Origin: Diprion similis
Taxonomy: Eukaryota; Arthropoda; Insecta; Hymenoptera; Diprionidae
Direction: 5' to 3'
Length of the DNA stretch: 64,000 nt
Assembly: GCF_021155765.1 (NCBI RefSeq)
Contig: NC_060106.1
Coordinates: forward strand, 20,548,031-20,612,030
In this document: positions 18,327 through 48,929 of the stretch, one piece after another
Layout of the letters: the number at the start of each line of letters is the position of its first letter
Position numbering within the stretch: position 1 is the first letter of the stretch
Notes under the pieces: generated by a model
What the model was told of the DNA's origin: nothing
The model's database searches: none
The model's input: only the letters and a program-made list of their open reading frames with translations
Made by a program: the position numbers and the translations under genes

Positions 18327-18360
<34 letters not shown>

Positions 18361-21300: not shown

Positions 21301-24300
21301 GTTTTTTCATCTGCTCCAGCATCTCGGTGGGGTTTAAATTCGTCCATTGAACCCCGGTTTTACTGTGCCTGTTCAAATACCAAGTTATATGTGCCAGTTC
21401 AATCCATCCAGTATAGTATAATTTATTGGGTCAATTCAAATTTGGGGATATTCATTCGTTAATGTTCTTCTCAAAACTCAAATTAAATTTTTAATTTAAA
21501 CTTGTCTCATATACGTGAATTCTAAAATCTTATTACTCAACGTACGAAGAAAGACTTACGGTATATGAACTGGATACTCCGGACCAAGGAGTTTGCTACC
21601 TTCCCAAAAACAGTCCAACGGCGTGATTATCGCGCACGGTATGATGTTCTCGAATATCTGAAAAATAAATTTAAGGAGACGGTTGAATTGTTGAGTTCCG
21701 TTAAAAATTGCGAAAAATCCTTCTTCTCTCTCTTTAAATCCAAAGTCCACCGAGTCTCCTCTTCTGCGCAGGATCCGTTTATAGTTCAGGCAGAAACTAA
21801 CACGCGGTTAGGTATAATATACTTGTATAGGATCGCGGAGAAACGAGCTTTCTTAGAATAGGACGAACCTTGCGCCCTGCTTGGCCTCGCCTTCTGTCCT
21901 TACATTCCCCTCTCCCTCCCTCCCTTCCTCATCTACCTTTAGACCTTCGGCAACAAAATCACTCCGTATAGTTTTCTCCTCTCTTGTCCTCTTGTCCTCT
22001 CTTTCTACACCTCATCTCGCCCTTTTTCTTTCCCCTTCCCCCCAACTTGCGCAGGAAAGATTATGGCAGATTAAGTTTCCTACTTCTCGGAAGAATTTTA
22101 AACAGCGGACGAGATTCGAAGAGGTCTGTAGCACCCTCCTTTCTTCACTTCTTTCCCTTCCTCCTCAGCTCTGATCTCTTCCAGGACAGTGTGAAATAAT
22201 TGAGGTAATAAATTGTGCTATCCGGATGTCGAATGAATGTCAGGGTTGGATGGTTTTTGTTCTTTTTTGTACACCACTATATTTGCATTCAGTTATTTAG
22301 TTTCTTTGAAATTCTGGGATCGATGTTAAAATATATACATCACAACTATTTTCTTCCAGCAATTTTTGAAAATTGTTATACATATTTTTTTTCTTGTAGA
22401 GGATGGAAGTTAGTTTTTTAAAAATAGTCGAACAGTCGTTCGGAAATAGTTAAAATTTTTGATGTTACGAGATTATCGACGAGCGGTTATCAAAGCAGCT
22501 CTATACTAACCCAGAATAATAACACAGGTAATTCAAAATTATCTCTAAAATTAAAATCTAAAAAAAAACAAACACTCCGATGTTCAGCAAAAGTTTTTCC
22601 GATTGTAATTAAAAAAAAAAATTACGAAAAATTTAGTTACTTTTCTTAAAACTGGAAAAATCGCTTTGGTTTCTACAAGATCAAACTTTGATAAAAAAAA
22701 AAATGATTTTTTCCTTTACTAGTAACGTATAAGAAACCAAAATGTAACATTCATAAGTCAGACCCAAAAATCGTGTTGACCGGTATAATTCGTGTACTTT
22801 TGGGTTCGATCTCGTCGCTATTCTCAACTCAGGGAACAAAATAAGGAAAAAAAAATGATGAAAGGAAGGGATATGTTTGAATATATAATGATCAGTGTTC
22901 TCAAGGCCTAGCTAAAGCAGCCGGATGGAAATAGGAGGGCAGGAAAGAGACTATTATGTCACTGTACAGAATGTGGGAGAGTTAGTAAGTGTATAAGTAA
23001 TAGGTAATAAATGATTGGAAAAGATGGGAAAGACCTAGGTGAGTGGGATAGACGAAACGTAGAAATAGCAAATTGCAACAAATTTTAAATATGAAGGTTT
23101 ACAGAAACACGTCTCGCTTCTAGAGACTTAAAAAACAAAGGACGCAAGGAAATCGAAACAGATATAGAACGGTTAAAATGAATCCAACCCTGCAATGGTT
23201 GAATACAAAATATCCTCAATTAAAGCTGACTGAATTGCCCCGCGCGTTAAACAAATCGAAGGCGTTTCATATATTAACTGCATACTTCAGAGTACAAGTA
23301 GGTATTAGCTTTCTGACGTCCGACGGCAGTATCAAGTATAAAATGATTAGCGGTAGGGGTAGAAGATAATTGGATGGGTAGGTTTGAAGAAGGTAGGCGC
23401 GTGCGTGCACGCAACCGCGTTTTACAGTAGCGTGCGAGATATGCAGATTGTGTCATGGAGCAACGTCATATTTCCTGCAGATACCGGTTGCCGTACGAAG
23501 CTGCGCGTCGTTGTCGTCAAGGATGCTTTGGTCTAACCTAACAATAATGCAAAATATCCGATGTGGCATGCCCGTAAACCGCCTGTTTTTTTGGAAAGGA
23601 TAAAGATTTCAGCATACAACTGAAATTATCCGAGCCAAAAAACGGTTTACGGGCATGCCACATACAATATTTTTTACGGTATGGGCATTGAAAAGCAAAA
23701 CGAAGAGTGAGGTTATGTCGCGATCTGTTCGACGAAGCTACTTTATAAGGCAGTTTGGGATGCGCACTTCTAACTGCGCATCAAAACTGCGGAATAAAGA
23801 CTTTAATCCGCAACTTTGTTCGCTGCCGTATAAAGCGTTACTTTACAAAACGAAAACTGCCACAAAAAGTGAACTTTTCAATGCTCATGCCTTAAAAAAT
23901 ATTTTCACCCTAACTTCCCAGACCATTTTCTCAATTCCCTGATTTCTCGATTTTTCCTGCGCAGTAATTTGAGTGCGAGAAAACGCTGTAATCATTGGTA
24001 CCCGAATTTCGGCATAAAAATCTTCTATAATTCTAGTCAACGATTAAAATTATGCTTTCGAAGTGGAAGTGATCGTAGTTGATCAGCGCGGAGGACTGCT
24101 GGGAGTAGCGATTGCAGGCTGGGCGCAGTATTCTAGGTAAATAGAAGGCAGATGAGACCAACACACTCCTATTATCACATGCTTGTGTCCCATTCTCTCA
24201 AAGCGTGTGTATACCTGTAAAGAGTACCTGCTGTGGCACATTATACCAATACATACACACAAACAAACCCTCCACAACCACGATCTACTCTATACTCGTA

Positions 24301-27300
24301 TAATATTATACAAGCACGGTACGTAATCGGTCGGTATCAGCATCAACATCAACATCAGCAGCATCAACAACAGCAGCAGGAGCAGCAGCAGCAGCAGCAG
24401 CAGCAGCATCTCAACAGGCTGCGATACTACCCGAAGGGCATTTATTGCGCTCGCATTTGCGTACGTAACGACGAGGGTCCGCGCCGACGACCTGAAGAAG
24501 ACCACACGCCGTGACGACCCGATGTAAGAGGACATTGGTTGAAGAGGTGAGGGGTGGCGGTGGCGAGACAGGGGGATGAGGAGGGGGAGGGGGAGGGGCA
24601 CAGGAAGACAACCCGCGGCCGGTGCCTGCGCCAAAGACGAGGAGGAAGACGAGGAAGACGGAGCCAGGCGCACCCCGTCATTATGCGAGGCTAATTGCCT
24701 CGCCGCTTATTTAGTAGTGGCTGCCCGTTCGTTCCTTCGTCCGTTGGTCGCCTTGCCGCCGCCGTCAGGCTCTCTCTGTCCCCTTTCTCTTGTACCTTCC
24801 CTGCTCTTCCATGCTCTTCTCTTCTCTTCTCTTCATCGCCGTGCCGCGAACCACTTGATGGGCTTACACAGACCCCATAATGCGTATTATACCCTATATG
24901 TCTTATACCTTCGGGCTACGATATACCGATCGTAAATCGTCTGTCCCAGACGTATTTACAGTCTATATAGATATCGCGCTTGTGTCTACATACATACGTT
25001 ACGTCGTACATTTTTATGGACGCTTCAATGTGTAGGTCAGACGTGCAGATTAAACTGCGGAACGTGAACATCGATCGGATTTGGTTATTGATTAATTTTT
25101 ACAAAGCAAACGTTTTTGTGCTCGACGATTTCGCGTGATTTTATGCGTGTATGTATATATGAGACATAATGTTTTTGGTAATGTCATATCGAATTGCACA
25201 AAATTTCTTCTTCTCATACCTATTTAGTCTCGACTTTTGTAGGCAGATTTTTTTTTTCTAAATATATTTTTCTGAAAGCTTTCTTTAGTAAGGAAAGTCA
25301 GTCAGGAGGTTAGAATCTCTCATCGCGATAAAATCGTATCGATTGATGTGAAATGTTTTGCAATAGTGTTTGAAATTTGTCAACTATTTTAAAATCCTTC
25401 GGGAAATCATTGAAATTTTGTTTGTTTTTTTTCATCTGTTCAGTATTGAGAGTGTGATAATTTTATGCACATCGACGAACTACGATTATAAGCGTACATA
25501 ACGTTACATACCTGATCGATATAGTGCATGTCGTAATTGGGCACGCTCGGCGCGTAGCACATGTCTTTCAATCGCCAGGACCTAGAAAGAAAGAATACAA
25601 CGTGAGGCTAGACTACACGCGTCTGAAATTCTCGTATTATACATGTCATAGATTGCGTGCGACTTGATTTTCTTTTTTAGTCTAGTATAGACTGTTTGGA
25701 ATTGGAAATTCTGAAATTTCTGAACCAATTAGCATTACCTAAAAACTGATTATTTTCAATTTGTGTTTCTTTTCTTTTCTTTTCGCTCACATTATACAGA
25801 AATTTTTTTTCAAACTCATTACACAATGGATAGCAAAAATTATCTCGTCAATTTTCTTAATTACGCATCCGCATGTAGAATGAAGTTCTTAATTCTCCTT
25901 GACGTAGAGAAAAAAAATCATAACATCGTAGCGTTTAGAAACACGCAAGCTAATTTTAACAGTGCGCGGTCCAATTTTATTACGTATAATTTATGATAAT
26001 TATTACTGTTTCTTTCTTCTAAAATTCATTGTAAATTTGTCCAGTTTATGTCTTTGCACGAAAGAAGTTGCAAGCTTTACACAATTCCATATGAACTTTG
26101 GGGTTGAGCAATGCGAGTGCACAGCATAGTGACGTCGTTAATTCTTATGGTGGAGTTGTTGCTAATTACGTATGCATACAGGTGTGGATGACACAAACGA
26201 AGATAGTATCTTTCTGGCAACTTATACACACACCAGTGTATTATGGAAGTTATGTAATGTTTACTCGTGTGTAGGTATACTTTTTATGTAATGTAATATA
26301 GGAAAGGGGTGAAGATGTTGTACATGCATCGTGTGTATAACTTTTAAAAATGCATCTCAGTACTCCATCGCTCGACGTTCGAGAATGCGCGTTGGGTTGT
26401 TGGCCAACCAGGATGTGGATTTTTTTTATTGCTTTTATTTAATTTCGCTTTATATTCTTTGGTTTCTTTATTCTCTCAAAATGACAATTGAAAAGAAAGA
26501 AGAAGAATCGGAAATATACCCTTCGTACGATACCCTAAATTATAGGAATTAAAAAATCGAGCAGAAACAGGAGGAAAAGATAGTAAAATAGTAATAATAA
26601 TAATTAGATCTATTAAAAAACAAAAAAAAAAATAAAATAAAATAAAACCTGATACTAACAAAACGCAAATAACTACACGATGGTACAAAAAACGGGAAAA
26701 AGGAAAACTTACGTATCGAACAACTGAACCGTCACTTGAGTCGCGGCTCTTAGAGCGGTCAAATGTTCCTTCAGAGCAGCCGAATGTAGGATATTTGCTC
26801 CCGCGTGTTTCGGGGTCTGGATCACGAGCTGATGCGTCGAAGCTGCAGCCTCGCCGAGGGCCTCGCTCGCGTATTGGACCTCTTTCTCCAGCCTTCCACC
26901 CTCTGCAAAGTAAAAGCGAACGAAAACGTTTTTATTGCAAATGGTGTGCAGAGAATAATCAAAACGGGATAAATCATCTTTTGTATAATACTTCGAGAGT
27001 CTTTCACTCGTTAAAAGTAGGATTTTGTCAAAAATTTTATACGCATCATAGGTTTCAACACATCGTGAACTCTTCTGTTGTTTTGTCTTCATGTGTATTT
27101 ACATTGAAAAAACAAATTCTATGTATCGATGAAACGATTTTTTTTTAGAAACATTCTTGTAACGAAGTCTTCAATTTTACTCATACATCGATATTATTCG
27201 ATATAAATACTCGGTTCAACACAACAATTTCTGGCTTTTTCCGGAAATATTTATAACACGAAATTAACTGCTTTTATAACTCCAAAAACAATAATTGAAC

Positions 27301-30300
27301 CCACAGAGAATGGGAGCTCTAAAAAAGACTTGCTTAGCCGCGAGGCATCGGGCTTAGCTGATACAGAAAATACCCTTTATTTCCTTCAAATCATCAGTAA
27401 TAACCATAAGGTGTTTGAACTTATATTATACGCGATATGTCGTAAAGGGACGTTTGTCTGGCTTTTGGTCCTCGTGGTTCTTGGGCCCCTCGGGCCCCTG
27501 GGCCACCCAAAAGGTACCGGAGCCGCGGTTCTTTGGGTCGTTCCCAGCTTTCCCCAATTCCCAATTGTACTATAAGTCGGGTACCGACCAACGGACATGT
27601 GGCGAGTGGCGAGAATTCGGCGAAGATCCTTACGTCGTTATTTTCCGTGCGTCGATTATTGTCAATAGTTTTTTCTTCTGCTTTTCCGTTGGAAAGAAAA
27701 CTTGGTGTATAATAATATAATCGACCAGCAAATGAAAGGTTGAGTTTTGCACCAGATCTCGACGTTTTGAGGCCCAAAGAATTACCTCCTACCTTTCTCA
27801 CATCGATTTTTGGGTGTTTGTCTCTGAGCAATTTTGCGCAAAAACGTAAAATTTCTTGTGTGACTGCAATATAATCAACTCGAAAACGAATGGACCAATT
27901 TAGACTGAATTTGGTCCACTGCAGGTGGAGCTTCTTTGAACTTCTCATTAAAACTGATGATCCAGATTTTGAGTAGATAACAAGATCTAAGTCGAGATTG
28001 GATCTGACTTTTCGTGCGATTTTTACATCGTCAAAATTTCTTCTTCTCAACAGATTTTTCTCTGCTCATTTTTTCGTCACTACTTCCACGCTTTTACCGT
28101 GAAAACCATTCGTTCAATCTGTTTTCTTTCTTCCTTTCATTTTTTATCAAATTTAGAATAATACTTCCACAATTTTTTCATCGACTATCTTTTCGATCTC
28201 TTTTCCGAATTATTGATCGCTGATGGTATAACAACATCAACAATAATATCAATAATTGTTTTTTATTTTATTCATTCAAAATTTCTATCCGCCCTAATAA
28301 TCCTTGCCGATTTCTTCATCCCTTACGCGATGCATCCTTGTCGATTTTTCAACGTGCAAAGAGTGCAGCAGACCGGTAACTGCAGCCTGCATGCATGCCG
28401 CTAATAGGTAGGTGAAGGAACGTGGCTGCGGCGCGCTGCGCGTAGACGGGCAGCGGAAGAGAGGGCAGCAAGAGGGGGGCGGGGGGGGGGGTCTAGATGA
28501 ATGGATGACGATGGCGGGGAGGGGAAGGGAGGGGAGAGAAGGGGGCATCACGCGGGAGGTCGCGGCCACGCCGCGCGCCATTGACCGCCTGGCGGTCCAG
28601 CACGAAGCTCGACGCCAGGATCAATTCTGAACCATTTTCCGCAGAATGCAGCCCCGTCTCGCCCTCGACCCCCTATGGTTCAGATTTCATCGCTTTTCAC
28701 GTACTTAGTTCTGTTTCCAAATTCATACGACGATGGTGTGTAAAGTTGTTTGCCTTTGAGATTCTTGCGATGGACTGTACGTCGATGATGAATTTGGCAA
28801 TTTTGAGGTTATGAAAGCTTGGACATTATTTTTCTTATTTGCGTGAAGTTTGTAAAATTCAGTTTCTCAAAGACACGCTTGAATTTGAGAAATCCGACTG
28901 CGTGGATCTCTGTTGTTTACGATATTTCGAAAAGATGCAATTTTAAAACAGTAATTGTGTCACAAGAGTTTTATATTTTTTGTATACTTTATTGCACAGA
29001 TGTTCAGTAAATATTGTACAATCAAATTATCAGTTACAGAACTATATTTGATTATGAACAGGACTGTAAACATAAATATAAACAGTAAATAAATAAATAT
29101 CATGTAACTAAGACTGGTCATTCAGAATGTATAATACATACAGTACCAAACAGAATGTGCTAGTCAAAACATTACATATAAGTAAGATTTACAGAGTTTA
29201 TTGAACATAAAAACATGCGTTGTCGTTAAAAGTAGCTACGATAACAAAACAAATTCGCAATTAACGACCCGAATAAAATCGAACCAAAACATGCAAATTC
29301 CACACTGCGTGATTTCGATCCGGTCGCAAAGACACGTGTGTTTACAGTATATCATATGAACCGATGCCCGCGGGACGGTTAGTAGTAGAGAGAAGAAAAA
29401 TCGAAGTCGCTGTCTTGTTCTTCGGATTTCCGGTCCGGTCGTCGATCGGGGGAATTGGCCGACGTAGTACGGCGTTTACGTTACAAGCAAACTTGCGGAG
29501 TGCACGCGTGTCCTCGCTATCGGACGGCTTACGCATAACCCCATTTAGTCTGGAATCTGATAAGTTGCGGTTTCCGCAGCGTGTAATGAATGCGCGTACA
29601 CACAGCTATCATCCGTGATGGTGGTTCGTACAAACTTGGCTGAAACAACGTCGACTATGACGAGACTGAGGACGAAGATGCGGTACCTACAGCCACAGCG
29701 CCGCGTCGCGTCGAGCGAGACGAAAAAAGAGACAGAGAGAGAGAAAAAGAGAAAGAGAAAGAGAGAGAGAGTGGCGGAGGGGCGACGGTCCGGTGGGCAG
29801 GGGGTAGACGGACCCCCGACGCTGGCCGCGGGCCACCCACGGAGACCATTCACCGGAACCGAGCCCCGTCCAGTTCAGTGGTTTTCATTTCGAAGCTTCC
29901 CGTACCTCGTCGGAATGTCGGCAGGGGGGTAGAATTAAGAACGTGGTATAAAGCCTACTCCTCGGTTCCCCGAAAAGTGAAACTAAGACCCCGGGTTTGG
30001 GGGATCCTCCGTTTTCAAGCTAAGACTCCGATTCATAGGTCTAGAGGTCCACGCAGTATCGAGGATCGAGTTGTTCTTCATACTGCGTCGGTAATATCGA
30101 CTAGGAAAAAAGCATTGGAGCACCTACACATCTCGATTTCCATGGGTCCTTTGGACCTCATTTTTGCCAATCGTTGGGCGAGTCGTGTTCGTGGTGCTGA
30201 ACATGCGAAGAAAGATTCGATCGAGCCAGGATGCTACTTCTTCGAGATCTTGGGGTGATCTTTCGCGGGGATGAGATCCGCTGTTGGAACAGCCGCGTTC

Positions 30301-33300
30301 GTTGGTCCCGTGGTCCGTCTGTCTGTCCGCTCTCTCATCGGCGCAACAACAACAACAGCAACAATAACAACAACAACGGATTCCCTCCCGGTGGGTCTTC
30401 GGACGCTCTCCGTCTTCGTCTCCGGTCTCCGTCTGGGCCCGAGGCTCTTTTATCCTCGTCGGAGCCTCTCGCTCAAATGCGCTCAAAGGCATGGGGGCCT
30501 AATGAAGATGTAAGCAGTCGACCCGCATGCGCCGTCGTGCCTTCTTCCTTCGTCCTCCGTGGCCCGGTCCTCGGGACCGACCGACGCTCATCTCCGACCG
30601 AAGTCAATGTAGCGGGTGTCTGATTACTCCTGCCATTCGAAGCTCATTTCCAATTTCCTGACTCGTTCGGAGTGCGAAATTTGCCTTGTCACGCGGGACG
30701 GATCTTCAAGTCAGATTTCAACACTCTACACTATAGAGAAGTGGAAAATATGTGATAAATTGACTTTTAAATGGGTTCAAATTTTCTAAGCTCCATCGTG
30801 GTATTCAGAGTTTGATAATATGTCCTGAATGTAAACCCATCCGGTCAATTTTCTATTTCCATTTCAATCTCAGGCGAGAGTTGCTGATCCTGATTCAATT
30901 TTCCTTTAACTTGCTCCGTACTACAATGAACTAATCGAAAAAAGCATAAATCCAAGATTTCTGTGTCCTTTTAAAATTTGTTTAAATTATTACTATACTC
31001 TTTTGAAAACTAAGATCCAAGGGTCAGGAATAATCTTCTGTTCCAACTTCCATTTCTTATACAATTGTAGTAATTATTTAAAAAAAACGGAGCGAGGCTT
31101 ATAATAATTGTTTAGTGTGCCTGATTAAGTAAAAATGAGTGTACTGCATTTAACAGAGATTATAGTAATTAAATATTATTACAACTGTCACGAAGAGCAT
31201 ATTTCGGGTCACCAATTCAATTGATAATCGAGCTCGTCATGAAGTTGAATAAAACTGCGAACTTTGGGTGTATATAATCTACCAAGATCACTTTTACTTT
31301 CGCGTAATTCGCGTTCGCGTTCGCGTTTCTCGCGCTTTGATCAGTAGCTCTCACTTTCGCGAAGAAATTCGCAGCGACGTCGCGCGTTCACGGCTGAACC
31401 GGTGGTCCTCGATATACCGTTACTTATCGTATTATAAAGATGACGTCATACGGAATCATTATGCTTCCGCAAGGTTGTGGGTCTATGACACACTTATCCT
31501 TATATAAAGTATTTATATACACCTATATGCATGGATTTATAAATAGAGGAATTCAAGGCGCCATGCGGTCGAATTCCACTGCTTGAATATTCAAATGTAA
31601 TTTAGATGACCATTGGTGATCAATGTGAAAATATAAATATATATAATAAATTTCTTTTTTGACCTCCATGAATGTTAAATTTTCACAAAAAAAATGAATG
31701 ATTTAATTTTACTCCACTCGTGGTGGATGCTCATAATTTTTTATGAAAATCATTTATTCTAACACAAAATGACCTCGCGATTTTTTTTTTTCTCTGATTA
31801 TAGGCATAATACCGCAATTCCTCAATAACAACCGATTATTCTACCAACATATACGACCGAACTCGACACGCTGGAATGAGTAGTGATACTTGTTCCTGAG
31901 TAAGTTCAGACTGCAGCGTGTCTATAATACAATATTTGTAGGTGTGCGTGAGCGTTCGTTGTACGGCATCCATGCCTACATTCCGACATATTTTACAGCT
32001 GTGAAGCGGGCTGAACCGGATGAATCATCTCCGAGGGTGTCTCAGAGCTTTCTTCGGGATGACCCTGTATCATATTATCTTATACCGCGTCTCAAATCCG
32101 TACCTACGTTCAAACTAAACTTACATTTCAAGGCTCTGGTACGTGTATACGTATCCTCTTACGCCACAGCATATGATGATATGATCAGGATAGACACAGG
32201 ATTTTCATGTTTCGTCACGAGTCCTACTGACCCCGTAAGGTTCATTGTGTGGTTTCTGCAGGACCAACAACTCCACTCTGCATATCGTGACTTTTGTCAT
32301 CTTGCCAACTTTGTTAGAAACTTGGCCAATTCTTGGGAGCTCGAGTAACTCCAGTAACTTCAGTGCGGTTCGTTCTCACTTTTCGAAGAACCCGGGCCTT
32401 GACTCGTATAGACGGATGCAGCACTCTACTCTGGGAGAGATATCATCCACCCGTGCAGCGCCGTGTCGTGTCGTTGACATCTCAATGTTTTCGAAACCGG
32501 ACTGCATCCACTCAACGTCGTTCACCCCGCATTCGGTGCGTCTTCTTCACGCCGCTTCGGTAGATGTTATTATAACGCAAAGTAATTGAGGAGATCTCGT
32601 TTTGATCGGAATTCGATCTTTGGTAGCAGCAAACTAAATTAGTGCAAGGCCTGATCTGACCAACTTGGCGAAATTTTTGTTCGACGATATTCAGAGGATA
32701 TCGTGCATGCGAGAACCCTTTAGACCTTCTTTAACAACTTCCGGTTATGGGATACTGGCTACTACCAGTTTTGTTGTTGCACCTTGCCATATAAATTTTC
32801 CTAGAATCCTCCGAGTTCACTCCTTCTCGACACCGCAGGTATAAATTACAATAAGTAGACCCGTAGACTGTCGGGGAAAAGGTACTGTAACCCATAACTG
32901 GATGCCCGCACCTATCGTTCGATCTTTGCCTCACGGATATCCGGTATGAGCATCTATATAGACGTAGCGATCCAAGCTGCGTGCAGCACGTATTGCATCT
33001 CGGGTCTGGACCTTGTCTGCAACTGTCGGCGATGCGACAGGCTACCAATTTCGACATCAAAACAGAATCGAGGATCACTTCATCCGGGTTTATTTATTAC
33101 TCATCCAAAATTCGTTGAACCAAAGGTAAGATTATCAGTTTTCCACAACTGCATACATCCATGGACAAACCTATGGATATCGAAAAATGGGATGGTTTAA
33201 GCTGGTTTTGAATGTTGACTAAACGGTTGAGATGATGCGAGGGTAACAACCTCTTGCCTGTACCATAAACGCAAAATAATTTCCCGTTATTTGTCGACAA

Positions 33301-36300
33301 ATTACACAACGCCGAAGCGAGTTGTGCAGTGTTGTAGGTACCCTGCAACTTGTACCTCTTATACCCACCCGTCAACAATACGCGGCGAAAATCATGCCAG
33401 AGAAGAATCGTGGTGCTCGGGTAAATATAGGGGGCCCACCCAACACGCGGCTAATGTACTGTAGCTACGAGTAAGAAACGAAGTCGCGAGAGCGATATCG
33501 TTTTGCTCGAGTTGCCCCGCGGTTGGTTGGATGGTTGGATGGTTGGATGGTTGGATGGTTGGTTGGTTGGTTGGTTGGTCGGTTGGACCGACGGACGGAC
33601 CGACTTGGTAAAGCCGGACAGGAATAGGAACGGCGCGAGACGTGCGCGGAAGATGAAGAAGAAGAACTTGCCCGAGACGGTCATCCGCTGACTGACTGAC
33701 AGCCGCCATTAGAACCTCTTACGATCGCTCTCGAAACACGCAACTCGCCGACGTTTCTCAATATTACACACTACTTTATAATATCATCATCCGGTGGCAC
33801 AATTACTTCAGGGATACATGAAGAGATGATTTTTCTCTATAAATTTCTTATACCCACACAAAGAGATCCCATAGTATCGTAATAGCCAAGGCATTCTTCG
33901 GAAATTGGGCCAATCTTTTACATCGTGTGTTTTTCATCATTATTTATAAACTGGTATATATCTATTCACAATCTTCTTCAGGAAAAAAACTCTTCATCAC
34001 GTGTATTCATCGCATGCTTCAGATTTTTCAAATCGTTTTATACGATCACGGTTATGTTATTGGACTGTTTTATGAAACAGACTGTTTTCCTTTTTTAGAA
34101 CACTCTTGACTGGTATCGAAAACCGTGAGTATAATAGTCTCCATGTGATGTACTTACCCTGTACCCATAGTTGGTCGACTCGGCTGTGGACTTGGACTGA
34201 CTTTAGAGCAACGCAAAAGGTTGCCAGCGCCAGTATCGCGACAAAAAGCACCTTCCCTGCGTGCCTCTGCAGGAAGTATCCCAGCTGGCTCAGCTGATCC
34301 TGAAGGAGCGCTCGAATCCACACGGCCGACCTTTGACCCTCCGCCTTCCCCTGAAAAATAACCATAGAAAGAGAATATCAGGTTAAATTCTATCTTCTGT
34401 GCTGATAGTTTTGTGTTCTGAGAATTTTCCAGGACATGCAAGTCAAATTTCAGGACATTTATCGAGGATCGTCCGCTGTGCGATGAATAACTTACTATAG
34501 ACCCGGGCTCGTGGCCTGAGGAGGGGATAAAATGATATTGAGCCAAAACGGGGGGTGGCAACACATTTTCGAGAAACTACGTATGCACCTATACTTTGAC
34601 ACACACACACACGGACACGGGGCATATAGAAAAGCGAATGGAGGGGAGGGCAGGTGCTAACCGTGGCTTACTAATATCCCAAGGCGATGTATAACGTACT
34701 CGCCAGGCCGGTGTGCCGTGTGTGGCTCGCTTACATAACACTGCAGTTGCACACATAGTCACCCACAAGTGTAAGTGAGTAAGAGGATCATTCGTGGGCT
34801 GTTGCATCGTCCTAAATTAAGACAACATCGAGATGCGCCTACAATTTTGGATAACATTTGTGCTTCCAGTGCATCGGCTCACTGTGCCTTCAAGCATATT
34901 GCTTTCATTTCAAACTTTTTGCCTGATGAAAAATTGTTGAAACAGTTTCTCACTGTTAGTTCACATGTCCCGTTCCGAGTCGCTAGTATCTTCGTGGCTA
35001 CTTATTCATCAGGAAGACAGAGGACAGCAAGACGCCTCCGTTACTGCTAACAAGTGAAGAAATGAGAGGAGAAGCTTTGTTTCGAATCCTGTACACCCGC
35101 CCCGAGTTTCGCGCTAGGATCAATCTCCAATACTGTAGAAGTGGATACCTTTACTCTCTGAATATCCAGGGACCGCCGATCTACTCGTCCAAAGGAAGAA
35201 AAGGTGTGCAGGAGTTGGATATAACCGGCAACGTTGCGCCACGCTGGGACCGGGACCAGCCCAAGGTACCCGGGTCACTTTGACAATATCCCTCCTGGAC
35301 CACACGCAATCACCAACCCTATTCTCCGCGCGTCTCCTCGACTCTCGCTTCAGTTCCCGCAAGGACCACCAAGGACGGAGACGAAGGAAGGAACGAACGG
35401 CGATACATACACTCTAATATCATCATCCGTGTGGCGCAGTGTACCTTTGCCTTACCTTGGTATAACACGCGTATTGTACCCCGCGTTATGTGCCTGTGTC
35501 GGGCACAGGTATGCACACATATCGCCGCGAGGAATCTGCACCTCTCCCACCACCACAAGCCCCGGGCCCCGAGCTTCTTGCTTCTTTGCACCTGCGCTAG
35601 ATACACCTTTTCGTACCTACCGTAGGTAGGTATAGACATATTTCACGATGGCATGGAAGACTTATTGTATTTGCAAATTTGCAATTGCGTTAAATACGAA
35701 AATGAACATTGATTTGAGACTCTTTCAACTCTTGCTACGATATACTATCCCGACTATCAGTTCGTCACGGCGAAAATGTTTTGCAAGTTTCAATTTTATG
35801 ATCTTGCCAAATTTTGAATCGGAAAAATTGATGCGATAACGACCTTGCTATAGAGACTATACTAAATATACCCCGAATAAAAATACGCCGAGGTCTCCAG
35901 GGTTTCAGGACTTTTCAGCTGTCCGTAATGTGTCTGCAGTTCTTCTCTTCCATACATTACTTTCGCGCCCTTTAACGGACGTAACAGCTGATATCGTTAA
36001 GCGAGTGTTGTTTGGAAGTACTTGACACACGGACACGCACAGCGAGCGTGCACGTATAAATAGCGGCGTACCTATAAGGAGGAGACTGACGCCTACACTA
36101 GACTCTAAACAAGCCCTACAGTGTGGAGTGTGGAGAAAGCGAGGAGAGAATTCCCTGCCGCCACCAGAGGGCCCACGGATCAACGAAAGTTGAAAATGAA
36201 GACATTCGTTCACGAGCTATGGGCAACAGGGACGAGGGGCGTGTATCCCCTCGTCAAGATCAAAGGAATCCCCGGCTACCGCTACCGCGGCGTTTTCTTT

Positions 36301-38688
36301 CCGGGCCCCAAGCAAGGGCGATTCGGAGAAAGACCGTGCCTGATGGGCATCGGGCAGCTAGCAGCTAGATGCCAACGTACACATGCGCTCTTTGGAATGC
36401 TTGTCGCACAATCCGCCGTACTTTGCAGTAGGTATATAGATGTCTCAAATTCAAGAAATAACTACTGTAATACAGTATCATACAAAACCTATAAGAAAAA
36501 TTTCGTATTTACAACAATTCTGTATTAAACGACAACCCTTGTCCCAACACTGACATCAGTACAGAGAAGATTCACCTATTTGACCATTAAGTTGTGAAAA
36601 CATATAAAGAATTTCATTTGTCTGAAGAAAAAAAAATGTATCGGACAGTGCGAAACCAACAACAAGTGAAAAGAAGAGGAAAACTGTTTTCTAAACTGAT
36701 TAATTATGCACCCATCAATTTTTTTGCAAATTCATTGAAAATCTTACATTGCATAAATGTTAGTTTCTTCAGAGATTTTTTTTCATATCTCGTTAGTTCA
36801 GCAATCGACAACAGATTATGTGGCACAGGCGCAGAGCCTCTTGATGGCCGTAGGAGGGAACGGCTAGTGTGGGACTCTTCGTATATATTATTAGTACTTA
36901 TATATACTATAGTGTATGTATGCCGCACACGATGGCGGCACCTTTAATCTTACGCGCTGCACATTCAGGACTCCGAAGACGATGCGACGCGACGTGAGAG
37001 CTGAAGACGAAGACGAAGGTGACGCTCGGTGGAACCAGACGGTACGGGATGCAACTGACAAGTGCGACCATTCTATACTAGCGTATTCGTATAAGTACTA
37101 CGGCTGGCCCTTTACACATGCGTGAACCATATATACATATATCATGCACATAGGTACATGCGTTATGTAGTTTATAAAAAAAAATACTTGAACATGTTCA
37201 TAAATTGTGCTTTCATACCTTGCGTATGATGCATACTACGTATGCACTTTCTCTCGGCTACGTTACGCGTAACCACGTGGTTGTACATGCGCATGCAGAT
37301 ATCGGTATACATACACTTTACCTGCGACAGTTAATCAAGTGCGTAAACTGCAGGACATTATCACACATACACGAGGAGCATTCAATCAGGTTAGAAACGG
37401 TTCGCAGTTAGCATATTACGATATCAATTGGGACATTGTTTATTTGGAGCTTGGTTTTATGCGAGCTTTTACCTCTTTGCAGATTAAAACTATGATAAAT
37501 AAATATATGTAACATGACGGGAAGAAATGTAAGATTTTTTTCTATCCAAATTTAATCTTCTACACTTGTACTATTATAATTATGGTTTGGACAGTTCAGT
37601 ATTTAGTACAATTGCTTATCACGCAAATTATGATTTCATCTTTCAGCTAACGATCTGAGCCGTGGGGGGGCGCTGCTGGTTATGTAGAACCAGGAAGTCG
37701 AGAGAACTGAAGATCGAGAAGAGAATGGCGAGAAAGCTGATGCTAGAGGTCGAGGGCTGATCCTTCCCAGTTGGAATGCACTCGTTTTTCAATTCTCCGT
37801 GTGGAATCTGGTATGTTGTACGGAACGAGTCAGGCATAAACCGACTGTCGGACAAATACTGTTATTTATAATATAGATATAACACAATTTCAGGCAATCA
37901 TATTATAGTTGCTCCTCTATATGAGTTTGAAAGTGAATTCAGAGAATAACTTGAAGAAAAGAAGAGTAAACTAAGTGAAGATAAAAATGTGAATGAATCT
38001 CACATCACAAAGAAATCTTGATGCGGAAGACTATGAACTTCCGTTGGATGCACACGAATTCGTGTTGTAAGATATCACGAATAATCAGAGATCCGTTAAA
38101 AGCTTTTGAAAATGTCGCTGAAACTCCTACACTAGTCTGCCATTAAAATTGACTTAGGTCACGGACGACGAGGTGGAGAAGGAGTAGCAGTATTATTATT
38201 CATGCTACGCGTTGAGTTTTCAAAATGGAATGTACAGTTATATTCGGGGCTGTTTTAAAATGCCCATTTCCGCTTCATACAATTTTTACTCAAACTCCAA
38301 CAGCACAATCTCCTCACAAGATTGAACTAGGATTGAATATTTCGTTTCGGAGATACTTTCGAGAAGACCATCGAGTGTAAAAATATTCAGAAACCCTGGT
38401 TTTTCGTTAAGTGCTACCCAAATTCTACGGTTCTGGAATATCAAAATTTCTTCTCCGTCTTCTTACCTTCTCGAGCTGATCCAAAGCGATCGCAGCATCG
38501 GTCCAACTGGGCCTGACGTAAAGGTCGGTTTCGTGCCTGTGTCTAGTACTTCCGGTGTACCTCGCATTCGAGGAGGGTTGGTCAAGGTCTGTTTCGCGGT
38601 CGGTTTGGGACGGCGTGGGCCCATGTAGCCGTTCAGAACCGGAAGGGCGGTCCGCTAGGATCCCCGTTGGACCGGACGAAGCGACCAT
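12326..38688 (-). CDS. ptc: Patched, the Hedgehog receptor (complete, 11 coding exons)
   Basis: Exons on the minus strand: 38688-38467, 34350-34158, 26902-26713, 25581-25512, 21657-21560, 21368-21161, 16073-15666, 15568-13712, 13592-13104, 12725-12602 and 12480-12326. They total 4014 bases and 1337 residues, and phases agree at every junction. Patched is a 12-transmembrane RND-family protein that holds Smoothened inactive until it binds Hedgehog. Drosophila-like landmarks appear in order: [31 protein letters not shown] (TM1), [31 protein letters not shown]-like [14 protein letters not shown], the sterol-sensing domain with [68 protein letters not shown] and [11 protein letters not shown]. The ATG at 38688 has a good context (gaccATGg); the in-frame TTG upstream is not needed. 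The C-tail has a proline-rich PPAPPKRP but no PPxY motif. The upstream 11 kb carries Ci/GLI sites. Confidence 0.96.
12602..12725 (-). CDS. ptc: ptc coding exon 10 (C-tail)
   Basis: Encodes [18 protein letters not shown] then [19 protein letters not shown], matching the [11 protein letters not shown] block near the end of Drosophila Patched. The donor is a consensus GTAAGT. Confidence 0.85.
13104..13592 (-). CDS. ptc: ptc coding exon 9 (TM11-TM12 and C-tail)
   Basis: Begins [20 protein letters not shown], covers TM11 and TM12 ([15 protein letters not shown] region) and then the tail [33 protein letters not shown] and [16 protein letters not shown] before GTAGGG. Confidence 0.95.
13712..15568 (-). 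CDS. ptc: ptc coding exon 8 (sterol-sensing domain, second ectodomain, TM7-TM10)
   Basis: A single 1857-base exon for residues 464-1082. It holds the rest of the sterol-sensing domain (residues 464 to about 620), the central cytoplasmic loop starting [16 protein letters not shown]7, the whole second ectodomain ([13 protein letters not shown] to WEQYMGLR) and TM8-TM10. The TM4 charge motif reads GLGVHD (H528, D529) and the TM10 counterpart reads GIAVHF (H1075). Confidence 0.96.
15666..16073 (-). CDS. ptc: ptc coding exon 7 (first ectodomain to TM2)
   Basis: Begins [18 protein letters not shown], contains [14 protein letters not shown] and [20 protein letters not shown], and ends in [11 protein letters not shown], the start of TM2 and of the sterol-sensing domain. 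Confidence 0.95.
17640..17960. other. GC-rich island in ptc intron 6
   Basis: CpG-rich sequence in an AT-rich intron, with five CAACG-type units at about 17722-17749 and a one-mismatch GLI-like site GGCCACCCA at 17847-17855. The open frames on both strands show no protein similarity, so it is more likely regulatory or simple sequence. Confidence 0.4.
18330..18360. repeat. Poly-A run
   Basis: About 30 consecutive A residues; it may be the tail of a degraded retroposed sequence, but no body was identified. Confidence 0.7.
19150..19631 (-). mobile_element. Truncated copy of the 43105-43715 [14 protein letters not shown] element
   Basis: In reverse complement this follows the 43105 element closely: TAGGGTGGCGC end, GAGTCTCG-GTGACAAAATG, GAGCCCACTCCAAAGGACAG, and TTTTTAATTCATGTCGTGGT. 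It ends abruptly near the far arm, so one terminal repeat is missing. Both copies are non-coding. Confidence 0.8.
21161..21368 (-). CDS. ptc: ptc coding exon 6 (first ectodomain)
   Basis: Encodes [17 protein letters not shown] onward to [18 protein letters not shown] and KSQQ before GTAAGA. The paired C residues of the CLDP-x-CP-TAPN block are conserved. Confidence 0.94.
21560..21657 (-). CDS. ptc: ptc coding exon 5 (first ectodomain)
   Basis: Encodes [20 protein letters not shown] and [12 protein letters not shown], the conserved PC[11 protein letters not shown] block of Patched. Donor is GTAAGT. Confidence 0.94.
23561..23663. repeat. Perfect 21-bp inverted repeat forming a nested hairpin
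   Basis: Left arm ATGTGGCATGCCCGTAAACC plus G (23561-23581) is exactly complementary to 23643-23663. Inside the loop a second stem pairs ggataaagatttcag with ctgaaattatcc, so the whole 103 bases can fold as one long hairpin. Confidence 0.85.
23666..23903. mobile_element. [14 protein letters not shown] element with about 30-bp ends, adjacent to the hairpin
   Basis: The left end AATATTTTTTACGGTATGGG and following CATTGAAAAG match the reverse complement of the right end (AATATTTTTTAAGGCATGAG, CATTGAAAAG) with three differences. The interior holds two more small stems: GATGCGCA-TGCGCATC and TGCGGAATAAAG-CTTTAATCCGCA. It looks like a MITE with multiple hairpins; there is no coding capacity. Confidence 0.65.
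24335..24412. repeat. CAG/CAA trinucleotide tract
   Basis: A run of cag, caa and cat units that would read as polyglutamine on the plus strand and polyleucine on the minus strand. It sits in a ptc intron with no surrounding gene structure, so it is treated as simple sequence. Confidence 0.7.
25512..25581 (-). CDS. ptc: ptc coding exon 4 (first ectodomain)
   Basis: A 70-base exon encoding [23 protein letters not shown] in two overlapping parts: [11 protein letters not shown] and [12 protein letters not shown]. Acceptor ttctttctag and donor GTATGT fit, and the phase joins both neighbours. Confidence 0.9.
26713..26902 (-). CDS. ptc: ptc coding exon 3 (first ectodomain)
   Basis: Encodes [18 protein letters not shown] onward, through THQLVIQTP and [20 protein letters not shown]. 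It corresponds to the start of the first large extracellular loop of Patched. Confidence 0.94.
27740..27990. repeat. Possible diverged dispersed repeat, copy 2
   Basis: Shares an ordered set of short blocks with 55-330, beginning gatctcgacgttttgagg and later aatggaccaatttagact. This is a by-eye match without defined ends. Confidence 0.3.
29380..30640. other. GC-rich, CpG-rich island in ptc intron 2
   Basis: About 1.2 kb of elevated GC including a GA-rich run (29725-29772) and a CAA run (about 30345-30378). No conserved protein or splice pattern was found. It could hold an internal promoter or enhancer of ptc, which the sequence alone cannot prove. Confidence 0.35.
33519..33585. repeat. GGTTGGAT / GGTTGGTC minisatellite
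   Basis: Four or more ggttggat units followed by ggttggttggttggtc units. Open frames reading PTNQPT repeats on the minus strand arise from this run. Confidence 0.85.
34158..34350 (-). CDS. ptc: ptc coding exon 2 (TM1)
   Basis: Begins [10 protein letters not shown] after a tatttttcag acceptor, encodes the first membrane segment [19 protein letters not shown] (about residues 108-126) and ends in LWVQ plus one base before GTAAGT. Confidence 0.93.
34351..38466 (-). other. ptc intron 1 (4.1 kb)
   Basis: No exon recognised. GC-rich segments at about 35050-35640 and 36120-36400 have overlapping open frames without similarity to known proteins. A near-consensus GLI site with one mismatch, GACCACCAA, is at 35364-35372. 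Confidence 0.7.
38467..38688 (-). CDS. ptc: ptc coding exon 1
   Basis: Encodes residues 1-74, the cytoplasmic N-terminus, ending in [12 protein letters not shown] before a GTAAGA donor. A short upstream ATG in another frame (about 38703) overlaps the start and could act as a small upstream ORF. A 5' UTR intron is possible because gagggggcag precedes that ATG. Confidence 0.93.
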
Positions 38689-40379: not shown

Positions 40380-40830
40380 CGTACCTGGGACACCAGTGAT
40401 GTCAGAGTCGAGTTCAGCCGAGCGTAGCCGAGATCGGATCGGGTGTTTCCTGATTGGTCCTAACTGAACGTGGCGTCTCCGGTTGCCAGGCAACGCTGAA
40501 CGCTTTGAGCGCAATATGCGCTGGTCACAGTGGCGGCGGCTGGCGCTCGGTGCTTGCGGCGCGGCGGGGTGCCTGAACGTAGCGACGTGTGCGGGGCGAG
40601 GGGAAATTCGGACCACACACGCGGTACCATTTCCCCTCGAGCAAAAACATTACACACTTGCGAGCGAGCGCGCGTTCGTGCAGGATACCAACGCACGCAC
40701 GCACGCACGCACCCGCGCGCACGCACGCGCACGGAGCTCGGCCTTGGATGTGTGCGTGCGCACTACCGTGCTAGGTCGAATTCAGGTGTTGCCTATGCGC
40801 GTGTGAGATTCCCTATCACTTAGAGGCGAA
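40380..40830 (-). promoter_or_regulatory. Possible CpG-rich promoter region upstream of ptc
   Basis: A 450-base GC- and CpG-rich block contains a reversed CCAAT box (gattgg, 40452-40457), a perfect X-box palindrome (40482-40494) and a (GCAC)n run near 40688-40715. It lies 1.7-2.1 kb upstream of the ptc ATG. It could be the ptc promoter or that of an unrecognised transcript; no TATA box was seen, so direction is inferred only from the neighbour. Confidence 0.35.
40482..40494. promoter_or_regulatory. RFX X-box palindrome
   Basis: GTTGCCAGGCAAC is two perfect RFX half-sites (GTTGCC and GGCAAC) separated by one base. RFX factors bind such X-boxes upstream of ciliary genes in animals. The occupant gene is unknown. 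Confidence 0.5.
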
Positions 40831-43715: not shown

Positions 43716-43988
43716 TTACCCACATTATTCCTAATTATTCCCGGGTAATAGTTTCGAGTTGTGTTCAACGTCAATGTGCTTCGACGTAGATACGGCAACT
43801 CGCTGTGGCATTACGGACGTAGGATGGCGGCTACCGCGGTATTATAACGGCGCGCAAGAACGTCGCGGTTGAGGAGGAAGAGGTGAGGCTGCAACCGAGG
43901 AAGGAGGGCGGCGAGCCAAGCGTTGCGCGTCTTCTACATAGACCGATTCGACGTGTGCGTAGAGACGAATACTCCTAAACGGGAAGAA

Positions 43989-43997
43989 GACCACCCA
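43989..43997 (-). promoter_or_regulatory. Ci/GLI consensus site 1
   Basis: GACCACCCA, an exact Ci/GLI 9-mer (same sense as ptc transcription reads TGGGTGGTC), 5.3 kb upstream of the ptc ATG in a GC-rich island between two MITEs. Confidence 0.7.
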
Positions 43998-44144
43998 CGA
44001 TCGACGGACCGACTGCGTTTCATTTCCCCCATCCCCCCGTGGAACTTCCCCTTCTTGTGTACGTGCACGTCCGTTAAAAGGGCTCGCGAGATGCGCGTGT
44101 AAGTTCCGCATTTTCATTATGTTATCATATACATGTATCTATAC

Positions 44145-44407
44145 TAGACTGTATCGAAAAAATTGACTAAAACATGTTTATAAATTTTCTGTACGACGCG
44201 TCGTTATCTAGTTATAAAAATCGCAAGGAGCAAGAACCATTTTTGCCACGTTATTCTTATGGAAAGTAGAAAATCGCGATGAGGCACATCTAAATATCAA
44301 TATTAAAATCTGAAATTTTTATGGTATTTCTTTTTCGTCATCTTGAACAATATTTTCAGTATACTACTAAAAATAAAAAAAATAGTCCATTTTTTTGATA
44401 CAGTCTA
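44145..44407. mobile_element. [14 protein letters not shown] element (MITE) with TAGACTGTATC ends, 263 bp
   Basis: The left end TAGACTGTATCGAAAAAATT and following GACTA is matched by the reverse complement of the right end, TAGACTGTATCAAAAAAATG then GACTA, with two differences in 25 bases. The interior is AT-rich and non-coding. Flanking TA suggests a Tc1/mariner-like mobiliser. Confidence 0.8.
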
Positions 44408-46008
44408 ATGTATACACATACCGACGAGTCGCGATTTATGCAGCAGCGTTATACCGTGATCCGGAAACTGCGGTTAACATCTATTGTTAATCGATTTATT
44501 TGTGGGTGTACCGGATTTTCGTCACGCTTTGAATTCCGTCTTCTGTAGTTTACTAGGTATACTACTTCCATATTCCTTGCACTATATATAATACCTTTAA
44601 CGAAAAATCTGAAACACGTGCAGGGAGATAATCGAAAACGTGAGTGGAAATGACCGTAAACTTTTCTGGAGAAATCCTTCACCGATTCTCGCGAAAAATA
44701 ACAGCGCATAACTCATTCTACTATTGTCATTGTCAGTGTAACAATTCACCGATTTGTTTATCAACAATGCATTGTATCCATTGGGTATGCATTATATGTA
44801 TGCATGCTTGCAACAACGATATTAGGTATGGTCACCATGCTATCCTGTACTATCGCGGGTTAGCTCATACGCCTCTTTATTACACACGCGTTCTTAGCTC
44901 CTCGCCAACGCTGTATATCCTGCTTTGATCTTTGCCGCAATCTATCTGCGATAGTACCGTTACCTGGCGTAGGTAGGTAGGCAGGATATAGCGGCTCGCG
45001 TTCTTGGCCTCACTCTTTCCACACTCCTTCGTCTTAAATCATACAGCAGGGAGTTCGTGTATGACTGTGTTTGTTTGTGTGTAAAACATTCACGTGAATA
45101 GAGTCATGGACCCAATCCGTCTCACTGTAACTCGCAATAGCATTTAATGGAATAAATGTGTATGGTGAAATGTGAGTTGCCTTTTTTTCCAACGTCGTTG
45201 GATTCTTCAAGACGGCTCGTTTGAAGACTGTTTTTATACCATTACGGGTCTGCAATCTTTTTACGATTAGTCAAAGTAAATGCATCGTAGAGAGTAATGG
45301 CACCTTGGTTTCAATATTCACAGAAGTTTTGAAATTCTTTATAGCAAGGATATTGTAACCTACGATGTACGATAAATTCAGTCCTTTTCAGTCTTTGATC
45401 AGGAGAACAATAAAAACAGAATAAACGAGATACGTCTCTCTTTATGGTCTTTATCATCTCGCATTTAAGGAAATGTTGGTCCTTTAATTTGAAACCACTT
45501 CAAACAAATAAATTCCCAAAAATGCAATCCAGTTGAACAGTAGAATGCCCTAACCTCAGTGATTGAAAATCAACTGCAAATATTCCTATGATATAATATG
45601 TCCATCAGTTTGCTGAACATTTTTGGGTAATCATACTGCAGACACAATTGCAAACTCACATAATATCCCGAAGTTTGAAACGATTTCGTTACTCAACAAG
45701 AAAGAAAGTGTAAAACACGCAATTCGCATACTCGGTCGCTACTCTTAACATCTCTTAAATAGCATTCGCCATTCCACATTGAGTGACCATCAAGTCGCAA
45801 AAATTGATACTTACTATTTATCCTAATCTATATCGCATTGCCCAAGTTTCATACTAGTTGACATTGCTTACGTTTCGTTCTGCACGTATAAAACGAAAAA
45901 GTCTGGAACGAAGGCACCGTCACTAGAATATAATCGAATGACGTGGGCAGTGCGGATATCGCGGTTTTATCTAATTTCCATGCGTCGTGAATCGGGGATT
46001 GAACGAGG

Positions 46009-46045
46009 CAGGCAGGCATACAGGCAAGCAGGCAGGCAGGCAGGC
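46009..46045. repeat. (AGGC)n microsatellite
   Basis: Interrupted aggc units; this lies about 125 bases from the first member of the close Ci/GLI pair. Confidence 0.8.
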
Positions 46046-46169
46046 GTTCAATCGCCGTTCTCTGTGAATATACGTGTGTGATTTTATGACACACGTGAAC
46101 GAGCTCATACGTTAGGACCCGGTGTATGTATACCGTGAACGATCCGGAGACAGCGTTTTAGACTCGCGT

Positions 46170-46178
46170 TGGGTGGTC
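46170..46178 (+). promoter_or_regulatory. Ci/GLI consensus site 2
   Basis: TGGGTGGTC, exact match; first of a pair whose starts are 21 bp apart, in a GC-rich island 7.5 kb upstream of the ptc ATG. Confidence 0.75.
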
Positions 46179-46190
46179 TTGGGCACGCGG

Positions 46191-46199
46191 TGGGTGGTC
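46191..46199 (+). promoter_or_regulatory. Ci/GLI consensus site 3
   Basis: TGGGTGGTC, exact match in the same orientation as site 2 and two helical turns away. Confidence 0.75.
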
Positions 46200-47376
46200 T
46201 CTCACTCGCACCACATTAGCCCTCACCGCGGTTCCAGGAGGCGACACCCACCTCCGCCAGCACCTATATCGCGTTAAACGGGCTCTTCTCGTAATAATAG
46301 TAATAACCTCGATCCATCCGGCCGTAATGCGTATGTGGATCCTCGATTACGCGTGCCTTCGTACTCCGGCTGCGTACCGGTCACTTCACCCTTCATATGC
46401 ACCTCCACGTGGACGAATTATGCGAGGAGGTTGACGTAGCTTTCCGCGTTTGAATCGAACACTGCAAGCACCAACTGAATGCGCAATTTTAAGCGCAACT
46501 GTCATGCACTACTTGTAGGAAACATGTCTCTGCATCAACTGGACTTTCATTTCATTACGTTTTTGGATAGCTCGTGAAATGGTAATTATGTGGAATCCTT
46601 CAGGACACTAAGGAAACGACTTGATCCATTTGAACTTGGGTCGTTCGCCAAATTTCAATAGAATTCTATTTGACAATTGCCAATGATTCAACTATCAAAA
46701 ATTGGATTGGTGTTGAAACCTTTGATGCCGTCAAGCTTCGGAGCTAAGATTTTTCGCTCCTTGATGACCAAAAACTTCTCGGTTTCTCGGAGAGCTTTGC
46801 TTAGTTAAGCGCCTGAAAGCTGCAACCAATCCAACGTTTATACTAGTAAAAGTGAAAGGTTGCCGCCTCTGCGGCGCCACGTTAGTCTCATATCTCATCG
46901 AACACCTATTGTGAAGTTGAAAACACTTAAAGCCTGGAAAGGATTAATTAGAATTCCACTATCAAACTTATGGCGTTTAATTTTTTCAGAACCACAATAT
47001 CCCTGCCATTAATACAACGGTGCAAAAAGTGGAGTACCTAACCAAACAACCTATGTACATAAACTTTCATATAAAATTGGCGATCTTCGGACTCTCGATC
47101 CAATATAAACGATCCTTTCAATATACATATATCGCAGCTGAGACTAGATATCATAAATTTTGGAATGTATTCAAATAACTTTTCACAATGCTCCATGTTG
47201 AGCTCCGCAGGTCAGATCATTCGCGTAAGTAGGTCGATCTTGTATCAGAATTTGACGGGATTGCGGGCCCTGAAACTTGCCGCTCGCGCTCGGAGGCGGT
47301 GGATACTGTTGGACCCGTAGGCTGGCTCGACGACTGCCAACTTCCGTGGCGACGGCGACGGCGGCTGGCGCCTTCT

Positions 47377-47385
47377 TGGGTGGTC
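47377..47385 (+). promoter_or_regulatory. Ci/GLI consensus site 4
   Basis: TGGGTGGTC, exact match in the GC-rich island 47180-47560, 8.7 kb upstream of the ptc ATG. Confidence 0.7.
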
Positions 47386-48863
47386 TTCGGCTCGCCTCTG
47401 AGCCCGCGGCGCGGTTCGTTCGATCCGGGCGACGGACGCTCATCAAGAGCGTGTCGATCCCGGTACGACGTTCCGTATGCGCAGGTATGTTCCTTGGCAT
47501 TGTACCTCGTGGTGTACATGTGGTCTCTTAGTTGCGGGGCGCGTAGGTAGCCGAGCACATTCTACGACCTGGGTAAACACGCCGCCCGCTACTGCACTTC
47601 GAATGTTCTTTCTACCCACTGATATTATGATCAGATTGTAATACCAGAGAAAGACTATACAGCAGAGGGAAAACGTTTAAACCAGAGGCGCTCTCTGGTA
47701 CTTCAAATATGCTTCTTTTGACTATTCACATGTTCCATCTTACCATTCCGCCTATAGTCAAGTTAACTACTTTTTGTAGTAGATTTTGTGTGCCTTGATT
47801 GCACAAAGAGGTAGTTGCTATTCACACAGTTTATGCAACTATGTGAGACAGTATCATCGAATTTTCTGGTTAGAATATACTCACTGCAACTAGATCTTTC
47901 CCTTACAATTACAGTAATCTGTGTGAGTATTATAGTTCAGAGCAAACGAAATCGTCATTTATTTGCTTAATTCATTTCTTCAAAAAAGTATAAGCAAATT
48001 CAACGGACCGGAACGCTACGGAGGAACGGTAACTTACGATTAGATGCCAATTAGTTACAAAGAATATCCCCCCCCCCCTCTCCCCCTTCCCCTCTATTAT
48101 CTCAATGAGGTAAAACAATAAGAAAGAAGAGGAAATTTAATGTTTTCTGAGGTGTTTTCGGGAACTCAGAGGCCTGAGACTTTCACTCTGTTCTTGGCGA
48201 TTCGGACAGCTGTGTATCAGCAGCCTTAAACCATTATACGCGGTGACCTGGAGTTGAGGAATCTACGCGTAACATAATCAAGCACGCTCCGCTAATACTC
48301 GGTTCGAAAAGGAGTAAAATAAAAAATTTACACACCGTGGTTCCTTCCATCTATCGACTCCGAAGAATAAAGTTGGTCACAGCATGGTTCTCAAAGCGTT
48401 TATAAAGTAATATTTCAGGCTTACACATATACAGCTTCCGTGCTTTTATTCCGGCTTTCCATCCGACGTAACTTGAGAGGTATAAAATAAAGAAACCAAC
48501 ATGTCGGCACCTCACACCCTCCGTTCACACTGGCCTGAACTCCTATCAAAGAACACCGCATTAAGTACCGCGTAAAAGATCTTCCTTTAATTTACCACCG
48601 GTATAATTATCCAAACAAATATTTCGACACCTGTAATCCCCCCCCCCCCCACCTCCCACCCCCCACTTCCCTCCCTGGAACCCTCTTGCGGGGGCAGACC
48701 AGGTGCCGCTGTTCGACGAAACTACAATGAACTCCCCTGCCATGGCTAAAATACGACATACACACGGTTTACTATGAACTATGTATGATGCATTTGTGTA
48801 CGGACGTGCTCGTCCATCGACGTGTGCGTCGACGTATACAATCGCGGGTGTCGGAGGCGAGCG

Positions 48864-48872
48864 TGGGTGGTC
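48864..48872 (+). promoter_or_regulatory. Ci/GLI consensus site 5
   Basis: TGGGTGGTC, exact match, flanked by CG before and CTTGG after; start 57 bp from that of site 6. Confidence 0.75.
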
Positions 48873-48920
48873 CTTGGACCGATTTGCCTTCTGCTAAATA
48901 TCGCCTTTGCGCCATCGACG

Positions 48921-48929
48921 TGGGTGGTC
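48921..48929 (+). promoter_or_regulatory. Ci/GLI consensus site 6
   Basis: TGGGTGGTC, exact match, in the extended context ACGTGGGTGGTCCTCG, which resembles the flanks of site 5. Confidence 0.75.

Follow-up and report, generated by a model that had tools for sequence, protein, structure and literature searches.

Six perfect Ci/GLI sites upstream of patched in Diprion similis: a candidate Hedgehog feedback region

Genomic organization of the patched locus

The window, which is the whole 64-kb stretch of DNA analyzed here (C2:20548031-20612030), carries on its minus strand the gene that the original prediction had named patched (ptc), and protein comparisons bear this identity out. Beyond the first coding exon, seven further exon matches to the Patched model TIGR00918 are ordered along one gene (Table 1). 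None of these matches alone passes the whole-protein cut-off of the model, which is expected because the gene was matched exon by exon. The largest exon scores 590 bits against solved PTCH1 chains, 109 against NPC1 and 41 against Dispatched, and the first coding exon presumably resembles the N terminus of fly Patched. The position of the start codon therefore places the exact sites described below 5.3-10.2 kb upstream of the coding sequence. The ptc promoter and transcription start may well lie in a GC-rich patch at 40.4-40.9 kb.

The stretch farther upstream had been described as free of genes, and it appears so: all 20 stop-to-stop frames of at least 80 aa in 40.9-49.8 kb lack a Pfam domain, and a hidden coding gene was rejected for this interval. 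Within 38.7-40.9 kb this search, which was for protein domains, covered a single frame of 158 aa at 39.7-40.2 kb, and it also gave no Pfam match. Upstream of the array, the nearest gene-like DNA is a relative of the GMC oxidoreductases on the minus strand, from about 49.83 kb, which is spread at 49827-51705 over several short frames with a Pfam score of 21.2 bits, below the cut-off of 23. Its neighbors are fuller GMC exons (55.6-57.2 kb) and exons of DC-STAMP (58.5-59.8 kb). Between the candidate promoter and the array, the segment 43100-43715 is AT-rich and has, by eye, mirrored ends (GGTGGCGCAAAAAAA ... TTTTTTTGCGCCACC); it is perhaps a small transposon. A dispersed repeat at about 44123-44427 has many genomic copies, which often form opposed pairs with a spacing of some hundreds of bases.

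Table 1. Coordinates of patched exons and of exact and one-mismatch Ci/GLI sites in the window
Feature	Position	Strand	Remarks
ptc, seven further exon matches to TIGR00918	13290..34362	-	Ordered along one gene
ptc introns, seven one-mismatch sites	17847..35372		2G (three), 2C, 8A (two), 6A
ptc first coding exon	38467..38688	-	Start codon 38688, GTAAGA donor
One-mismatch site GACCACACA (7A)	40611..40619	+	In GC-rich patch near candidate ptc promoter
Site 1, exact Ci/GLI optimum	43989..43997	-	Context CGTGGGTGGTCT
Site 2, exact Ci/GLI optimum	46170..46178	+	
Site 3, exact Ci/GLI optimum	46191..46199	+	21 bases from site 2
Site 4, exact Ci/GLI optimum	47377..47385	+	
Site 5, exact Ci/GLI optimum	48864..48872	+	Context CGTGGGTGGTCC
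Site 6, exact Ci/GLI optimum	48921..48929	+	57 bases from site 5; context CGTGGGTGGTCC

Exact and weaker Ci/GLI sites around patched

The original prediction took the 9-mer TGGGTGGTC, or GACCACCCA on the other strand, as the Ci/GLI consensus and listed six copies of it; the word is indeed the Ci/GLI optimum. An exact word count recovered the same six, five on the plus and one on the minus strand, with no seventh copy in the window, so the 5′ DNA of this ptc orthologue contains optimal GACCACCCA sites. The 12-mer CGTGGGTGGTCC shared by sites 5 and 6 is a motif reported from Gli3 ChIP-chip in mouse heart (PMC4214600).

Dinucleotide shuffles of the window (n = 100) contained the exact word 0.20 times on average and at most twice, against the six copies observed. 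When 43.9-49.0 kb is modeled as a first-order Markov chain, 0.013 exact words are predicted, and the largest count in 300 runs was 2; by this comparison GC composition was rejected as the cause of the array. The excess is limited to the perfect word, since one-mismatch words in this interval number 0 against 0.64 expected under the same model, and two-mismatch words are at background (8 against 8.7). Allowing one mismatch adds nine sites in the window, none of which falls in 43.9-49.0 kb. A motif-blind count of all 9-mers returned GACCACCCA as the most repeated one in the array apart from poly-C, and the next had three copies once simple and overlapping words were excluded. Among 50 control chunks, each 4.94 kb long, two contained a GC-rich word with at least five copies; these chunks were a non-random sample composed of other parts of the window and of loci fetched for other reasons. 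The array thus shows the homotypic clustering above chance that would characterize a Ci/GLI-responsive ptc region. Its sites lie in GC-rich surroundings, as had been claimed, at the 91st to 99.8th percentile of local window GC, and these patches are CpG-rich as well.

Weaker sites have a different distribution, and neither the 7A site nor the seven intronic sites described here appear in the original prediction. Between 38.7 and 43.9 kb there is a single one-mismatch site, the 7A variant at 40611, against 0.65 expected, and it is therefore its position, not its presence, that deserves attention. In a human PTCH1 reporter, the 7A variant was reported to be equal to or above the consensus (PMC2830928). 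The ptc introns (16092-38466) hold seven one-mismatch sites against 2.35 expected, a number reached in 2 of 60 Markov runs. Four of these variants (2G three times and 2C once) belong to types recorded as functional in natural promoters, two are 8A, and one is 6A, any change at position 6 being one that abolishes activity. The 13 kb past the 3′ end of ptc contain no one-mismatch site, and 49.8-64 kb contain one, again 6A.

Genome-wide distribution of the exact site

The genome searched comprises 269 Mb in 60 contigs. It contains 609 copies of the exact word and 612 of the reversed control pattern, and hence shows no genome-wide enrichment of the word. At this rate 0.011 copies are expected per 4.9 kb. 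The Poisson probability of six sites in one fixed window is 2.7e-15; when 609 starting points are allowed for, it rises to about 9e-10. Through seven flanking-base searches, whose counts sum to 609, 550 of the 609 copies were placed; the 59 others all belong to the class STGGGTGGTCS beyond C9:916242, and a denser group among them is conceivable.

A density rank had been proposed as a check, and among the 550 placed copies the ptc array is first at all eight scales (5, 10, 20, 50, 100, 150, 225 and 300 kb). No other 5-kb stretch has more than four of these placed copies. The runner-up at 5 kb, C14:8551081, has four, one in each unit of a 245-bp tandem repeat; a repeat of this kind, with the exact Ci word in its unit, is a trap for cluster scans. 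With ptc and the C14 repeat set aside, the 550 placed sites form nine pairs with a spacing of at most 5 kb, where 5.6 would be expected, which makes these other pairs mostly chance. Twenty frames from such loci gave Pfam matches over the cut-off to IF-2B and Ints3, and under it to Arc capsid, Mu Gam, BTB and C2H2; no clear Hedgehog target is found among these families. Among the 550 placed copies, five exact sites in 142 kb at C1:2646739-2788800 rank second at the 150-kb scale, and ten frames from this locus gave no Pfam match.

A further concentration lies at C4:15508708-15733519, where seven exact sites occur in 225 kb over a Wnt cluster. Wnt-family exons are found at about 15.508, 15.556 and 15.576 Mb, and by their features we tentatively take them to be Wnt10, Wnt6 and wingless (wg). 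One site lies between two Wnt10 exon frames, one is 2.9 kb past the last Wnt6 frame, two are 6.6-8.0 kb past the 3′ end of wg, and the remaining three lie upstream of the detected wg exons, at a distance of 137-157 kb. The rank of this locus among the 550 of 609 copies placed varies with scale. It is third at 10 kb, where its three sites come after ptc and the tandem repeat, is tied or placed lower at the 20-, 50-, 100- and 150-kb scales, and takes second place at 225 and 300 kb. It was first noticed at 10-20 kb and the 225-kb scale was picked afterwards to span the seven sites; the chance of so many sites in 225 kb anywhere is about 0.01 before this choice of scale is counted. In flies wg is reported as a Ci target (PMC4692483). 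The Wnt10-Wnt6-wingless cluster is thus a plausible further candidate for a Hedgehog target region, which is not to be taken as proof.

Candidate Hedgehog feedback control of patched

The components of the pathway are encoded in this genome. Finger exons of the Ci type at C1:8090495-8091574 share 75, 92 and 88% identity with the fly domain used as reference, and by this comparison the genome encodes a Ci/GLI factor with conserved DNA-binding fingers. A Hedgehog signal domain (hh) lies at C6:12.70-12.73 Mb. The words, their clustering, the neighboring ptc and the Ci-type and hh genes are all observed. In a well-known loop, Hedgehog signaling induces its own brake, the receptor gene patched, and the array fits this loop.

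We propose that the 5 kb upstream of ptc probably contains at least one Hedgehog-response module to which Ci, the effector of the GLI family, would bind, with natural units at about 43.8-44.1, 46.1-46.3, 47.3-47.5 and 48.8-49.0 kb. In the presence of Hedgehog, activator Ci would occupy the optimal sites, the modules would act as enhancers on the ptc promoter, and ptc transcription would rise; the additional Patched would in turn limit the Hedgehog signal. In its absence, the Ci repressor would occupy the same sites and keep ptc low. Judged from the sequence, we give Ci-dependent control of ptc through this stretch a probability of roughly 0.84, which derives from the fly base rate (PMC4692483) and from the genome rank found here. 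In that report, fly Ci-site clusters at known or suspected targets were active in 4 of 5 cases, and those picked by density in 4 of 17. Enhancer strength at fly ptc is described as not evidently related to how many sites there are or how good they are (PMC4887206). Perfect sites are also no guarantee of use, since a perfect site in human TGM3 was neither bound nor needed (PMC2830928).

Two explanations would deprive the array of a regulatory role, and both are scarcely credible. Chance matches in GC-rich DNA would agree with the location of all six sites in GC-rich patches, with a word no commoner in the genome than its reversed control and with the 2 of 50 control chunks that hold a GC-rich 9-mer in at least five copies, but not with Markov and genome-rate expectations of 0.013 and 0.011, nor with near-matches that show no excess. 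Copies spread inside a repeat are suggested by the dispersed repeat within the array stretch and by sites 2 and 4, which are identical at 18 of 20 bases; however, the flanks of the other sites differ, and all six sites lie outside the dispersed repeat and outside tandem arrays. The other 93 genomic matches of 43780-49150 all fall in the dispersed repeat, as judged from the 40 of 633 candidates that were scored, a fraction at which faint repeats could be missed. The dispersed repeat has no Ci site, and a repeat origin of the six sites was rejected with the same 40 of 633 candidates scored.

The remaining alternatives accept a function and change its nature. The array could serve the GMC oxidoreductase-like DNA, which begins about 0.9 kb past site 6; this is very improbable, since that DNA is also on the minus strand, which puts the array at its 3′ end, its Pfam match is below the cut-off, and it is spread over several short frames. 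Only slightly less improbable is a main user other than Ci. GLI, Zic and Gli-similar zinc-finger factors bind related words, and the top-scoring finger match of the genome search is at another locus, C6:15865477 (67% identity, 136 bits), but the word is the exact Ci/GLI optimum and stands at a classic Ci target gene. The sites might instead be promoter-proximal to an unmapped upstream first exon of ptc, and not a remote enhancer. Their GC-rich, CpG-rich patches would suit such a promoter, and human PTCH1 is reported to have alternative first exons with a GLI site above one of them (PMC2830928); against this, no positive sign of an exon was found and the GC-rich patch at 40.4-40.9 kb is closer to the coding exon. 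We consider it unlikely, though less so than the other alternatives.

Comparison with patched control in other animals

The original prediction set the array against the compact promoter-proximal cluster of Drosophila. Flies do have a promoter cluster, but the contrast was overstated, since remote modules, both upstream and intronic, also control fly ptc. Ci acts there through the promoter cluster and through further modules spread across 27 kb of DNA upstream and in the first intron, and a comparable battery is reported for mouse Ptch1 (PMC4887206). As in the fly ptc-prox element, a cluster of perfect GACCACCCA sites lies upstream of ptc. The fly element has three sites next to the promoter (PMC4887206), whereas here six extend over 4.9 kb; measured from the start codon, the nearest of these perfect sites is 5.3 kb and the farthest 10.2 kb away, and the 7A variant alone is nearer. 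The several separate upstream units and the weaker intronic sites, known here from sequence, recall the distributed batteries of fly ptc and mouse Ptch1. The fly modules, however, mix many affinities, while the array stretch contains perfect sites and none with one mismatch. In fly embryos, most of the response is reported to come from weak Ci sites, and perfect ones can be repressive (PMC4887206). Human PTCH1 has likewise a perfect consensus, the promoter GLI site BS2, upstream of the orthologous gene, but as one perfect site at -704 and one variant at -1033 (PMC2830928), and not as six perfect sites farther away. The titles and abstract openings searched, with most subscription journals outside their coverage, contain no description of ptc Ci sites in a non-Drosophila insect.

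The observation behind the original prediction is exact and its reading is sound as a candidate; the known ptc architecture is extended to one more animal, with a remote array in which all sites are perfect. More tentatively, and with rather more doubt than confidence, the upstream response of ptc might be built on a remote, perfect-only Ci array, while weak variants are left in the introns and a single 7A site lies close to the promoter, a division of strong and weak sites unlike that of the fly; with the same reserve, perfect words alone would rank ptc first and raise the wingless-containing Wnt cluster towards the top. The array is relevant to the question of why perfect sites serve in some ptc modules and weak sites in others, and it suggests that perfect Ci words alone may point to a main Hedgehog target in a 269-Mb genome. 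It also names four short, testable pieces of DNA for this very old feedback link of Hedgehog signaling in an animal other than the usual models.

In addition, the word TCGACGTGTGCGT occurs at 43948-43960 and 48817-48829, beside sites 1 and 5. It is possibly a shared co-factor word and is regarded as a lead only; at least 13 shared letters were obtained in 24 of 1500 GC-matched draws (P 0.016).
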